The position numbers and the translations under genes were made by a program. The notes beneath the pieces are model-generated. The model did not search any database and was not told the origin of the DNA. It saw nothing but the letters and a program-made list of their open reading frames with translations. 64,000 nucleotides of DNA from Alphaproteobacteria bacterium (lineage in GTDB: Bacteria; Pseudomonadota; Alphaproteobacteria; ATCC43930; CGMCC-115725), in assembly GCA_021325525.1 (NCBI GenBank), contig JAJPHB010000067.1, positions 1 to 64,000 of the forward strand, written 5' to 3'. Of this stretch, positions 20,406 through 53,209 are shown piece after piece. How positions within the stretch are numbered: the stretch's first letter is position 1; every line of letters begins with the position of its first letter.

Positions 20406-20621
20406 TCAGCGCAGGAGGCCCGCCCAGAACAGCCAGCCGATGGCGATGCCGCCGGTGGCGATGAGGACACGGCGCCGCAGCTTCAGCAGCAGCGGCGCCG
20501 CGTTGTCGTTCGCCGGCCCCGGCACGCGCAGCGCCGCCGGATGCACGAGCGACACCCCGTCGCAGCAAGCGCGCCGCAGCTCCGCCGCGGCGCCGGTGTT
20601 GCGTCGTCGCTCACTAGCCAC
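20406..20621 (-). CDS. Candidate small membrane protein downstream of gltA
   Basis: A 71-residue reading frame with a GTG start that overlaps the gltA stop. A polar N-terminal half is followed by [10 protein letters not shown] and one C-terminal hydrophobic helix ([22 protein letters not shown]). Third codon positions are almost all G or C, like neighbouring real genes, and the overlap would allow coupling to gltA. There is no recognised domain and no strong ribosome site, so the gene is plausible but unproven. An ATG 33 nt further upstream, inside gltA, is an alternative start. Confidence 0.4.
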
Positions 20622-21945
20622 GCTGCGCCACGGGCACGTAGTGACGCCGCGCATGACCGGTATAGAGCTGGCGCGGGCGCCCGATCTTCTGCATCGGGTC
20701 TTCGATCATCTCGTTCCATTGTGCGACCCAGCCGACCGTCCGCGCGATGGCGAAGAGGACGGTGAACATCGAGACCGGGAACCCCATGGCGCGCAGGATG
20801 ATGCCGGAATAGAAATCGACGTTTGGGTAGAGCTTGCGATCGACGAAATAGCGGTCCTCGAGCGCGATGCGCTCCAGCTCCATCGCGAGGTCGAGAAGCG
20901 GCTCGTCGCGGACGCCGAGCGTGTCGAGCACCTCGTGGCAGGATTTCCGCAGCACGGCGGCGCGCGGGTCGTAGTTCTTGTAGACGCGGTGGCCGAAGCC
21001 CATGAGCCGCGTATGGCCGTCCTTCTCCTTGACGCGCTTCAGAAACTCAGGAATTCGCTCCTTGGTGCCGATCTCGGTCAGCATCTTCAGGACCGCCTCG
21101 TTGGCGCCGCCATGGGCGGGGCCCCAGAGCGAGGCGATGCCGGCAGCGATGCAGGCGAAGGGATTGGCACCGGACGAGCCGGCGATGCGCACCGTCGAGG
21201 TGGACGCATTCTGCTCGTGATCGGCATGGAGGATGAAGATGCGGTCCATGGCGCGAGCGAGGACCGGGTTGACCTTATATTCCTCGCAGGGAACCGCAAA
21301 CATCATATGGAGGAAATTCTCGGCGTAGCTGAGCGAGTTCTTGGGATAAATGAAAGGCTGGCCGACGGAATATTTATAAGCCATCGCCGCGATCGTCGGC
21401 ATTTTGGCGATCATTCGGTAGGACGCGATGGTGCGCTGGCGCGGGTCGTGGATGTCCGTCGAATCGTGGTAGAAAGCAGAGAGCGCGCCGACCACGCCGC
21501 ACATCACCGCCATCGGATGCGCGTCGCGACGGAAGCCGCGGAAGAAGGCGCTCAGCTGCTCATGCACCATGGTGTGGTGCGTGATGTCCCAGACGAATTG
21601 CCTCATCTGGTCGGCATTCGGCAGCTCGCCATTCAAGAGCAGGTAGCAGACCTCCATGAAGTCGCTCTTCTCGGCGAGCTCCTCGATCGGATAGCCGCGA
21701 TAGAAGAGCTCGCCCTTGTCGCCGTCGATATAGGTGATCGCCGATTGGCAGCTCCCCGTCGAGGTATAGCCCGGGTCGAAGGTGAAAAATCCAGTATCGC
21801 TGTAGAGGCGGCGCACATCGATGACGCTGGGGCCGAGCGAGCCCGTCATCAGCGGCAGCTCCCAGGAGCGTCCGGTCTTGTTGTCGGTGAGCGTCACCGT
21901 CCCGGTGTTCGATCCTGCTTTGCCGGGTGTGGTTTTTGCGTCCAT
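20614..21945 (-). CDS. gltA: Citrate synthase, type II
   Basis: 443 residues, the hexameric NADH-sensitive Gram-negative type. Catalytic residues are in [10 protein letters not shown] (His), [14 protein letters not shown] (His and substrate Arg) and NVDFYSG (Asp). The N-terminal beta domain (about 1-60), with [19 protein letters not shown] following it, is present as in type II enzymes. The start at 21945 has AGGA 10 nt upstream; the frame is open 12 codons further. Condenses acetyl-CoA from the pdh operon in this window with oxaloacetate. Adjacent to gltX on the same strand, as usual in Alphaproteobacteria. Confidence 0.97.
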
Positions 21946-22045
21946 CGGCTGCCGTCCTGAAGGGGTTTCGCTGCGCTGCAAAATGGCGCGCCCAGAGCAT
22001 AGGACTCTGTTGCTTAATTATCAAATAAGCGGCGAAGGCAGGGGA

Positions 22046-41722: not shown

Positions 41723-42532
41723 CTATTCGGGCAGCAGCCTCTTCAGCACGGCGCGCCCGTCCTCGAGGTCGCGCTGGACGGCGCGAACCAGCGCCTTGGG
41801 GTCACGCCGACGGATCGCCTCCAGCATGGCCGCGTGATGGCGCCCACCCTTCCAGCCCGCGTCATAAGACACCGGAAAGAGCAGGTTCATCGACGGGCCG
41901 ACCTGAAGCCACAGCGTTTCCAGAATCTGCAGCAGCGACGGCATGCCGGCCGCGCCATAGATCATGAAGTGGAAATCCTCGTTGAGGCGCAGCGCGTCCT
42001 TGGTGGCGCGCCGGCGATAGGCCTCGCCATGCGCGGTATAGAGCGCCTCCATGCGCGCGAGCTGGGCGGCCGTCATCTTGGTGCAGCCGATCTCGGCGGC
42101 GAGCCCTTCGAGATTGAGGCGGATGACGCAGAGCTCCTCATACCGGTCCCGGGTCAAGATCGGGACGATCACCGTGCGGTCCGGTCCCTGCTCGAGGACG
42201 CGCTCGGCGACGAGGCGGTTCAGCGCCTCGCGTGCCGGCGTCAGGCTGACGCCGAGCGTCGCCGCGATTTCGCGGGTCGTCAGCCTTTCGCCCGGGGAGA
42301 GGGCGCCACGGCGCAGCGCCGTGCGCAGGCTCCGATAGGCTTGGTCGCCCAAGGTCTCGGGGCGATTGACGGGCCGCAGGCGGGCTGTGAGGGCCCGCTG
42401 CGGCGGCTGCCGCTCGGCGGCCGATCCGGCCTCGATCGGCTGCGCCTCGCCTTGGATTGCCCGTCTCACTCTCGTTCGCGCCTCTGAGGCCGCCCCATCG
42501 ACCCGCCGAATTGACCGGCCAAACCGTTGCAT
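41723..42532 (-). CDS. GntR-family transcriptional regulator, FCD subfamily
   Basis: About 269 residues. A winged helix (GDQAYRSLRTALRRG, LTTREIAATLGVSLTPAREALNRL) and a helical FCD domain with LNEDFHFMIYGAAG and HHAAML as ligand-site histidines. The N-terminus before the helix-turn-helix is unusually long (about 55 residues), so the real start may be later than the ATG at 42532; an ATG at 42544 would lie inside the palindrome upstream. It diverges from the ABC transporter genes and reads into the decarboxylase gene; it probably regulates both. Confidence 0.85.
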   Translation of the reverse strand: MQRFGRSIRRVDGAASEARTRVRRAIQGEAQPIEAGSAAERQPPQRALTARLRPVNRPETLGDQAYRSLRTALRRGALSPGERLTTREIAATLGVSLTPAREALNRLVAERVLEQGPDRTVIVPILTRDRYEELCVIRLNLEGLAAEIGCTKMTAAQLARMEALYTAHGEAYRRRATKDALRLNEDFHFMIYGAAGMPSLLQILETLWLQVGPSMNLLFPVSYDAGWKGGRHHAAMLEAIRRRDPKALVRAVQRDLEDGRAVLKRLLPE

Positions 42533-42548
42533 GATATAACACATATCA
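42532..42548. promoter_or_regulatory. Inverted repeat in the divergent gntR/ABC-transporter region
   Basis: TGATAT (42532-42537), 5-nt spacer AACAC, ATATCA (42543-42548): perfect 6-bp arms in an AT-rich patch at the divergent boundary. This is a good size for a dimeric GntR operator controlling both directions. Confidence 0.55.
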
Positions 42549-51591: not shown

Positions 51592-51915
51592 ATGATGGTC
51601 CTGCAGGAGATCAAGCGACGCGCCGGATTCATCGCCGGCCCCGTGCTCGGCATCAGCCTCATGGGCTATTTCGGCTACCATCTCGTGCAGGGCGAGCGCG
51701 GCCTGCTCGCTTGGCTCCGCCTGACGCAGGAGCTGAAGACCGCAACGGCCCAGCTCGCGGCGCTCGATGACGAGCGTAGCACCCTCGACCACCGCGTCGG
51801 CTTGCTGCGTCCGCAGCATATAGATCGCGACATGCTGGACGAGGAGGCGCGGGCGACGCTCAATCTCGCGGGGCCGCACGACATCGTGATCATGCGCGGC
51901 AGCCTGCCGCGCTGA
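51592..51915 (+). CDS. ftsB: Septum formation initiator FtsB/DivIC
   Basis: 107-residue bitopic protein: a short cytoplasmic N-terminus, one transmembrane helix (about 12-32) and a periplasmic coiled coil with heptad leucines (LTQELKTATAQLAALDDERSTL split over four turns), ending with DRDMLDEEARATLNLA, the family's conserved end. It forms the FtsQBL divisome subcomplex. Its place directly after eno supports the call. Two in-frame ATG codons start the gene. Confidence 0.9.
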   Translation: MMVLQEIKRRAGFIAGPVLGISLMGYFGYHLVQGERGLLAWLRLTQELKTATAQLAALDDERSTLDHRVGLLRPQHIDRDMLDEEARATLNLAGPHDIVIMRGSLPR

Positions 51916-52035: not shown

Positions 52036-52078
52036 CGATTAACCCGTTTCCGGTTAATCTTTTCTTTTGCATTGCAAA
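52036..52078. promoter_or_regulatory. Two adjacent palindromes upstream of pdhA
   Basis: GATTAACC-N7-GGTTAATC (52036-52058, perfect 8-bp arms) and TTTTGCA-T-TGCAAAA (52064-52078, perfect 7-bp arms) lie 118-160 nt before the pdhA ATG in the AT-rich part of a 280-nt gap. TTGCAT with TATGAA 15 nt later (52066-52092) could be a promoter overlapped by the second palindrome. This suggests dual control of the whole pdh operon. The remaining part of the gap up to 52195 holds no gene. Confidence 0.55.
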
Positions 52079-52195
52079 ACAATGTCTTATGAAAGAATTT
52101 TTTACCCGATGCCATTGCAATCGGCGTATGCGCACGCCATTTTACCGGCGATTTGCAGCCCTCGCGCAGGGCGCGGCTTCACCCCTGGGGGAGTC

Positions 52196-53209
52196 ATGGC
52201 GACGGTCAAGCGGAAACCGAGAGTAGCGCTCCCCGAAGAGGCGCCCGTATCGGCGGCCGAACTCCTCAAATATTACCGCTCGATGCTCCTCATCCGCCGC
52301 TTCGAGGAGAAGGCGGGACAGATGTACGGGATGGGCCTCATCGGCGGCTTCTGCCACCTCTACATCGGCCAGGAGGCGGTCGTCGTCGGCATGATGGCGG
52401 CGGCGAAGGAAGGCGACAGCACCGTCACCTCCTATCGCGACCACGGCCACATGCTGGCCTGCGGCATGGATCCCAAGGGCGTCATGGCCGAGCTGACCGG
52501 CCGCCGCACCGGCTATTCCAAGGGCAAGGGCGGCTCGATGCACATGTTCAGCCGCGAGAAGCGCTTCTTCGGCGGCCACGGCATCGTCGGCGCCCAGGTG
52601 CCGATCGGCACCGGCCTCGCCTTCGCCCACCGCTACAAGAACGATGGCGGCGTCTGCTTCACCTATCTCGGCGACGGCGCCATCAACCAGGGCCAAGTCT
52701 CGGAGAGCTTCAACATGGCGGCTCTCTGGAAGCTCCCGGTCGTCTATGTCATCGAGAACAATCGCTACGGGATGGGCACCTCGGTGCTGCGCGCCTCGGC
52801 GAGCCATGATCTCTATGTGCGCGCCCAGCCCTTCGGCATCCCGGCGATGCAGGTCGACGGCATGAACGTGCTCGCGGTGAAGGCGGCGGCCGATGTCGCG
52901 GTCGAGCATGCCCGCTCGGGCGAGGGGCCTTACGTGCTCGAAATGCTGACCTACCGTTATCGCGGCCATTCGATGTCGGACCCGGCGAAGTACCGCACCA
53001 AGGACGAGGTCAACCGCATGCGGGCCGAGCATGACTGCATCGACCAGGCAAAGAAGCGGCTGCTCGATGGCAATCTCGCGGATGAGAACGAGCTGAAGGC
53101 GATCGACAAGGAGGTCAAGGACCTCGTCGCCGCCGCGGCGCAATTCGCCCAGGACAGCCCCGAGCCCGACCCGTCGGAGCTGTGGACCGACGTGCTGAAG
53201 GAAGCCTGA
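52196..53209 (+). CDS. pdhA: Pyruvate dehydrogenase E1 component, alpha subunit
   Basis: 337 residues. Thiamine diphosphate site: GDGAINQGQVSESFNMAAL and ENNRYGMGTS, the GDG-x-N type motif. SREKRFFGGHGIVGAQVPIGTGLAFA and the phosphorylation-loop-like RYRGHSMSDPAKYR are typical of the heterotetrameric E1. GGGGGAG lies just upstream of the ATG at 52196; in-frame sequence further upstream is not conserved. With pdhB it forms E1, which decarboxylates pyruvate and loads E2. Confidence 0.96.
   Translation: MATVKRKPRVALPEEAPVSAAELLKYYRSMLLIRRFEEKAGQMYGMGLIGGFCHLYIGQEAVVVGMMAAAKEGDSTVTSYRDHGHMLACGMDPKGVMAELTGRRTGYSKGKGGSMHMFSREKRFFGGHGIVGAQVPIGTGLAFAHRYKNDGGVCFTYLGDGAINQGQVSESFNMAALWKLPVVYVIENNRYGMGTSVLRASASHDLYVRAQPFGIPAMQVDGMNVLAVKAAADVAVEHARSGEGPYVLEMLTYRYRGHSMSDPAKYRTKDEVNRMRAEHDCIDQAKKRLLDGNLADENELKAIDKEVKDLVAAAAQFAQDSPEPDPSELWTDVLKEA

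Follow-up and report, generated by a model that had tools for sequence, protein, structure and literature searches.

Locus organization and the pdhA leader

The window analysed here is a contiguous stretch of 64,000 nucleotides from the 4.79 Mb genome of an alphaproteobacterium, assembled in 172 contigs. At the locus of interest, the genes follow the order pyrG, kdsA, eno, ftsB, pdhA, pdhB, pdhC, lpd and lipA. Pfam supports the assignment of PdhA, PdhB, enolase and FtsB/DivIC, and the remaining neighbours were assigned by reading. Two palindromes, designated P1 and P2 (Table 1), lie in the 280 bp that separate ftsB from pdhA. The start of pdhA is likewise our reading, with the sequence GGGGGAG directly 5' of it.

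A candidate promoter with sigma-70-type hexamers, which a simple consensus scan did not report, can be read between the palindromes and pdhA. Transcription of the pdh operon would start from it at about position 52150, and P1, P2 and the IHF-like core described below would then be centred at approximately -102, -78 and -65. A sigma-54 promoter was considered and rejected: the GG-N10-GC spacing fits some relatives and not the window, and the -10 hexamers, judged by eye and unscored, suit sigma-70.

Among the 36 ORFs of the window scanned with Pfam, no regulator adjoins pdhA. The nearest regulator among them, of the GntR/FCD family (41726-42544), lies about 10 kb before pdhA next to an ABC transporter with an NMT1-type binding protein, and is probably local. 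The genome also encodes a second E1-like protein (L002, G000:C137:43268-44218) that is 36% identical to PdhA.

Table 1. Coordinates of genes and candidate regulatory features in the window
Feature	Coordinates	Strand	Remarks
gltA, citrate synthase	20614..21945	-	Pfam
Second-best PhaR-type site of the window	21966..21986	-	gltA leader
ftsB/divIC-like gene	51592..51915	+	Pfam; upstream of pdhA, same strand
P1, palindrome GATTAACC-N7-GGTTAATC	52037..52059	+	Member of class-wide A-TTAACY-N7-RGTTAA-T
P2, palindrome TTTTGCATTGCAAAA (TTTTGCA-T-TGCAAAA)	52065..52079	+	Candidate PhaR/AniA box; 21-mer scored at 52062-52082
IHF-like core AAACAATGTCTTA	52077..52089	+	WATCARNNNNTTR with 1 mismatch; overlaps right arm of P2
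Candidate sigma-70-type pdh operon promoter, TTGCAA-17-CATTTT	52115..52143	+	Reading, with similar hexamers in relatives
pdhA, pyruvate dehydrogenase E1 alpha	52196..53209	+	Followed by pdhB, pdhC, lpd

P1 is a conserved palindrome associated with pdhA

The original prediction placed two different perfect palindromes, 5 nt apart, in the pdhA leader. Both are present, and the span given for them (52036-52078) covers real sites, one base short at either end. With up to three mismatches allowed, each palindrome is the only match to its pattern in the 64 kb (shuffle means of 0.02 for P1 and 0.39 for P2). The proposed search of the 4.79 Mb genome returned a single perfect TTAACC-N7-GGTTAA site, accompanied by one site with one mismatch, and a single occurrence of the P2 core TTTGCANTGCAAA with at most one mismatch. 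The near-P1 site (L128 1501-1519; G000:C138:64957-64975) falls within the end of a glyS-like ORF, approximately 107 nt before a ppdK-like ORF (pyruvate phosphate dikinase), and is likely due to chance, since the reversed-pattern control is equally frequent (2). Both the P1 and P2 patterns were chosen after inspection, and the non-circular evidence is therefore their recurrence 5' of pdhA in other genomes.

Footprinting of the pdhA leaders of relatives, as originally proposed, revealed conservation, and the contrary outcome, with neither palindrome conserved, did not occur; a chance origin of P1 and P2 is ruled out by this conservation. PdhA was identified in 52 of 61 genomes, including the genome under study, at a cut-off of E ≤ 1e-100. 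Inspection by eye of the order's 30 best-matching pdhA loci showed P1 in 20, some of them degenerate (L006, L024, L032), and the whole element is absent from the other 10, belonging to genera g3, g5 and g11. The g5 and g11 loci (L016, L018-L023, L027, L029) lack both palindromes, and most of them share a short pdhA promoter, GGTTGCAA...TTTGNCACCATGCT. The four f2 loci that were read retain P1, with a G-T pair in two of them, and have no P2.

The association extends beyond the order. A joint pattern combining the right half of P1 with P2 matched 42 loci in a collection of 84,980 species; all 11 loci with alphaproteobacterial titles, including Acidisphaera and a Magnetospirillum MAG, have pdhA just downstream, and the other 31 show no pdhA within the stretch. 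The 61-bp element was also modelled as a profile from sequence alone; built on 20 sequences and run against 385 genomes, this profile matched 48 genomes at E ≤ 0.01. All 17 matches at E ≤ 1e-4 map to pdhA, 13 of them in genomes outside the profile alignment, and 21 of the 29 returned profile loci are at pdhA, the remaining eight being weak or partial.

We also compiled 100 further pdhA leaders from the 290 PdhA-positive genomes among these 385, leaving out most genomes already examined. In this sample, which is not random because it was picked mostly by order of PdhA similarity, TTAACY-N7-RGTTAA is exact in 24 leaders and reaches at least 10/11 in 40, a level attained by 0.25% of 2000 mononucleotide shuffles, none of which exceeds 10. 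Of the 385 genomes, 42 contain the strict 21-mer ATTAACY-N7-RGTTAAT, with exactly one site in each, and in 26 of these it lies at pdhA (18 of 30 returned loci, 4 assigned by coordinates and 4 of 8 fetched). Among the positive genomes, the 22 with 3.0 Mb or more all have the strict site at pdhA; the 16 sites away from pdhA are confined to genomes no larger than 2.0 Mb and are about as numerous as the matches to a reversed-pattern control (17 sites in 15 genomes). The remaining 343 genomes lack the strict form, and P1 is therefore common but far from universal. P1 resembles an operator belonging to a dedicated regulator.

As anticipated, sites of the E. coli PdhR type (ATTGGT-N3-ACCAAT) have no match near pdhA with three mismatches allowed. 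PdhR, a pyruvate-sensing member of the GntR family acting on aceEF-lpd, thus has an operator unlike the sites of the pdhA leader, and the genome contains no second strict P1 site of the kind that an autoregulated regulator gene would have. The CtrA site is TTAA-N7-TTAA, and P1 contains TTAA half-sites; their arrangement in P1, however, is TTAA-N11-TTAA, occurring about once per genome, unlike the site of a global regulator. TTAA-N7-TTAA itself is unmatched at P1, its only match in the window with at most one mismatch being at 22014, and an identity of P1 with the CtrA site, or with any other known from Alphaproteobacteria, is extremely unlikely.

P1 could instead act as an intrinsic terminator for eno-ftsB transcription and not as a protein site. 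A terminator scan calls P1 terminator-like, with the tail TTTTCTTTTG, and its RNA folds with a z of -2.6. Co-variation across 73 P1 elements points in the same direction, with Watson-Crick pairs at positions 5/13 in 49 elements vs 34.7 expected and at positions -1/19 in 45 vs 28.1 expected. A T-rich tail, however, follows only 24 of the 73 elements, so that the combination of stem and U-run is not kept in relatives. Moreover, the TTAAC/GTTAA blocks are nearly invariant, as is the N9 spacing, positions 5/13 form a C-A mismatch in 15 of the 73, and Rfam returned no match over the element, the only match, a weak one at 51741-51796 below the gathering score, falling outside it. A terminator would also leave unexplained both the core located at a fixed offset downstream and the single strict site per genome. 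We consider this explanation improbable as a replacement for the operator. The co-variation and the T-rich tails nonetheless make a part-time terminator role possible, and P1 may act in this way in some genomes, that of the window included.

An IHF-like core lies at a fixed distance from P1

The second conserved block of the pdhA leaders, in contrast to the palindromic P2, looks class-wide like an asymmetric IHF-like CAR-N4-TTR core. In the window, its CAA begins 22 nt after TTAACY-N7-RGTTAA of P1; one-mismatch matches to WATCARNNNNTTR number 8 in the window vs 14 expected, so that such a match is not significant alone. With a motif and an offset window picked after viewing the leaders, CAR-N4-TTR was found at offset 21-22 after P1 in 17 of 40 distant P1-bearing leaders from 24 families (shuffle mean 0.61, at most 4 in 2000 trials), at offset 32 in one more, and at offset 21-22 in 14 of 19 nearer leaders (shuffle mean 0.34). 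The family-weighted column profile, which is not conditioned on the motif, reads C 68%, A 84%, R 79% and, after four unconstrained positions, T 73%, T 85%, R 77%; an AT-rich block precedes the core by approximately 13 bp.

In IHF sites, the WATCAR element ends in R. The block shares with the IHF consensus WATCAANNNNTTR (PMC10380432) the CAR-N4-TTR core and the AT-rich DNA upstream, and its position between P1 and the promoter, at a constant distance from P1, is also IHF-like; the window's own site differs in having A for T in WATCAA. CAA-N4-TTR is also near the published NtrX motif, CAAN2-5TTG (PMC9223101), which would place pdhA under the control of NtrYX. The block is nevertheless asymmetric, with C at 68% on the left and A at 55% on the right, as befits the CAR...TTR shape of IHF sites and not a symmetric dimer site, and its inner spacing is fixed, whereas the NtrX sites published in that source vary. 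An NtrX site at this position is accordingly a very remote prospect, and we retain IHF as the candidate ligand. In the literature searched, as judged by titles and abstract openings, we found no description of P1 with an IHF-like core, nor of pdh operators in Alphaproteobacteria besides PhaR sites, though one in other wording may exist.

P2 resembles a PhaR box

P2 carries a TGC-N3-GCA (YGCR-N-YGCR) core, TGCATTGCA, at 52068-52076. The PhaR motif of S. meliloti consists of a YGCR-N-YGCR core with AT arms (PMC12542648). For B. diazoefficiens, a PhaR consensus TGCRNYGCASMA and a pdhA site, TGCAGTGCGGCA, are reported, together with pdhA expression 2.25-fold lower in a phaR mutant and some shifting in gels when PhaR was at its highest level (PMC6201568). 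A Methylorubrum phaR mutant also presents lower pdhA expression, and lower pdhB expression vs one control (PMC6520949). P2 is similar to the PhaR/AniA boxes of Bradyrhizobium (TGCRNYGCASMA) and Sinorhizobium (YGCRNYGCR) in its TGC-N3-GCA core, its AT arms and its location at pdhA. It differs from phasin-promoter boxes, which usually have TTGY/RCAA arms, in its TTTT/AAAA arms and in the adjoining P1. A single mismatch separates P2 from the B. diazoefficiens 12-mer, but such matches are not rare (25 in the window vs 21 expected).

We derived a matrix for the PHB-sensing regulator PhaR from 34 sites in 19 phasin promoters of relatives and of the genome under study; these sites had been chosen beforehand for TGC-N3-GCA and AT content. 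P2 is the top-scoring site of the 64 kb on either background. On a GC-rich background it scores 24.6 bits, above 14 of the 34 left-out sites (13 if the whole promoter is left out), and on a uniform background it scores 18.0 bits, above only 3 of 34; P2 therefore falls within the range of phasin sites, towards its low end. In sequence simulated at the composition of the window, a score at least equal to that of P2 would turn up 0.36 times per genome.

The genome encodes a PhaR homolog, with PF07879 over the cut-off at G000:C161:3100-3282. Across the order, phaR was identified in 40 of 43 genomes, including this one and genera without P2, so that the presence of phaR does not predict a P2 site; conversely, one genome that is 96% complete (G018) retains P2 with no phaR found. 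The P2 pattern TTTTGYNTTGCAAAACAA, with at most one mismatch, occurs in 14 of these 43 genomes, once in each, and its coordinates place it at pdhA in all except G013. At pdhA, the TGC-N3-GCA core is intact in loci of g1, g2, g6 and g10 and in some of g9; one half of it is broken in g7 and in other g9 loci, and the g8 loci, which have P1, lack it.

PhaR-type sites are also enriched in the class-wide sample of 100 pdhA leaders, being detected in 24, 19 and 11 leaders at thresholds of at least 9, 12 and 15 bits, respectively. Dinucleotide shuffles of the same leaders yield means of 2.6, 0.9 and 0.27 (maxima of 8, 4 and 2 in 100 trials), and two sets of control DNA yield 4, 1 and 0 of 109 pieces and 2, 2 and 0 of 76 pieces. 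Control sets containing motif-selected loci (21, 16 and 13 of 187; 9, 2 and 1 of 161) were set aside. Several class-wide leaders present the classical PhaR form elsewhere in the leader, such as TTGTGCAGCGCACAA (L238), and these displaced sites look like the product of site turnover.

The main alternative for P2 is that it constitutes a family-specific spelling of the IHF-like element, with incidental symmetry. The part conserved across the class, CAR-N4-TTR, lies to the right of the centre of P2, conservation within P2 is stronger in its right half than in its left, and the f2 loci keep the core with TGC-N3-GCA absent at that place; the low standing of P2 among phasin sites on the uniform background fits this explanation as well. 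Against it stand the top rank of P2 in the window under the PhaR matrix, the recurrence of TGC-N3-GCA at the register of P2 in several other families and the PhaR-type sites at other positions in other pdhA leaders. We judge this alternative unlikely, albeit with a substantial share of the probability. A PhaR box remains our preferred interpretation of P2, which probably adds another example of the known PhaR-pdhA link, because PhaR-dependent pdhA expression has been published for Bradyrhizobium and Methylorubrum. As a palindrome, P2 appears to be kept only in part of its home family and in a few other lineages, in a form that would fit PhaR there. The idea of two regulators put forward at the outset thus holds in that conservation gives good support to two separate sites for different proteins; the P2 palindrome, on the other hand, is not class-wide.

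A PhaR-type site in the gltA leader

The second-best PhaR-type site of the window lies just downstream of a candidate gltA promoter that we read as TTGATA-17-TATGCT, that is, in a repressor position. Scores like that of this site are expected 1.3 times per genome and 0.018 times per 64 kb in simulated sequence. PhaR of S. meliloti acts positively on Pdh proteins and negatively on gltA, and the gltA promoter of that species contains putative PhaR sites, binding to which was not evaluated in that study (PMC12542648). In the Table 3 entries examined, pdh is not among the motif-bearing genes, though Pdh responds to PhaR (PMC12542648). The window resembles the S. meliloti system in having a PhaR-type site at gltA too, with phaR in the genome.

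A proposed composite control region for pdh

The computations yield two conserved elements, a fixed spacing between P1 and the IHF-like core, a single strict P1 site per positive genome and a PhaR-like make-up of P2. From the sequence of the pdhA leader we infer binding, the direction of regulation and bending by IHF. We favour, at somewhat better than even chances, a model in which the ftsB-pdhA region constitutes a composite pdh control region, formed by a P1 operator, an IHF-type bend and a P2 PhaR box. P1 would be bound by a dimeric transcription factor dedicated to pdhA, and the IHF-type site, at its fixed distance, would bend the DNA that separates P1 from the sigma-70-type promoter, allowing an activator bound at P1 (about -102) to contact RNA polymerase. 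By analogy with published PhaR systems, free PhaR would bind P2 (about -78) when PHB is low and promote pdhA transcription, and PHB granules would titrate PhaR away, lowering that transcription. The same analogy suggests that PhaR probably represses gltA from the site after its -10 box.

Extended to the class, the proposal is that Alphaproteobacteria possess an ancient regulator dedicated to pdh, analogous to PdhR, which would bind A-TTAACY-N7-RGTTAA-T some 85-105 bp 5' of the transcription start and act via an IHF-type bend, with PhaR wired into the same region in some lineages, the window's included; we see the chances for and against this broader proposal as evenly balanced. Pyruvate dehydrogenase controls the principal passage from glycolysis to acetyl-CoA. 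If the model is true, carbon storage and pyruvate oxidation would be read out at one promoter, and a PhaR site at pdhA, with its matching gltA site, would extend the known link between PHB and pyruvate to a lineage represented here mainly by metagenome bins. A site found once per genome, and at pdhA in all positive genomes of at least 3 Mb, provides a clean bait for finding the regulator.

PhaR-type sites at other loci

Searches with a PhaR-type pattern in six genomes detected it only at pdhA in the genome under study, and in g2 at a few sites with no recognisable PHB genes beside them. The phasin promoters of the family (L150-L166) often contain two PhaR-type sites approximately 55 bp apart. 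In two g2 genomes (L131 and L142, near position 1501), a PhaR-like sequence, TTTTGCAACGCAATA, is located near the start of similar MFS-transporter-like ORFs.
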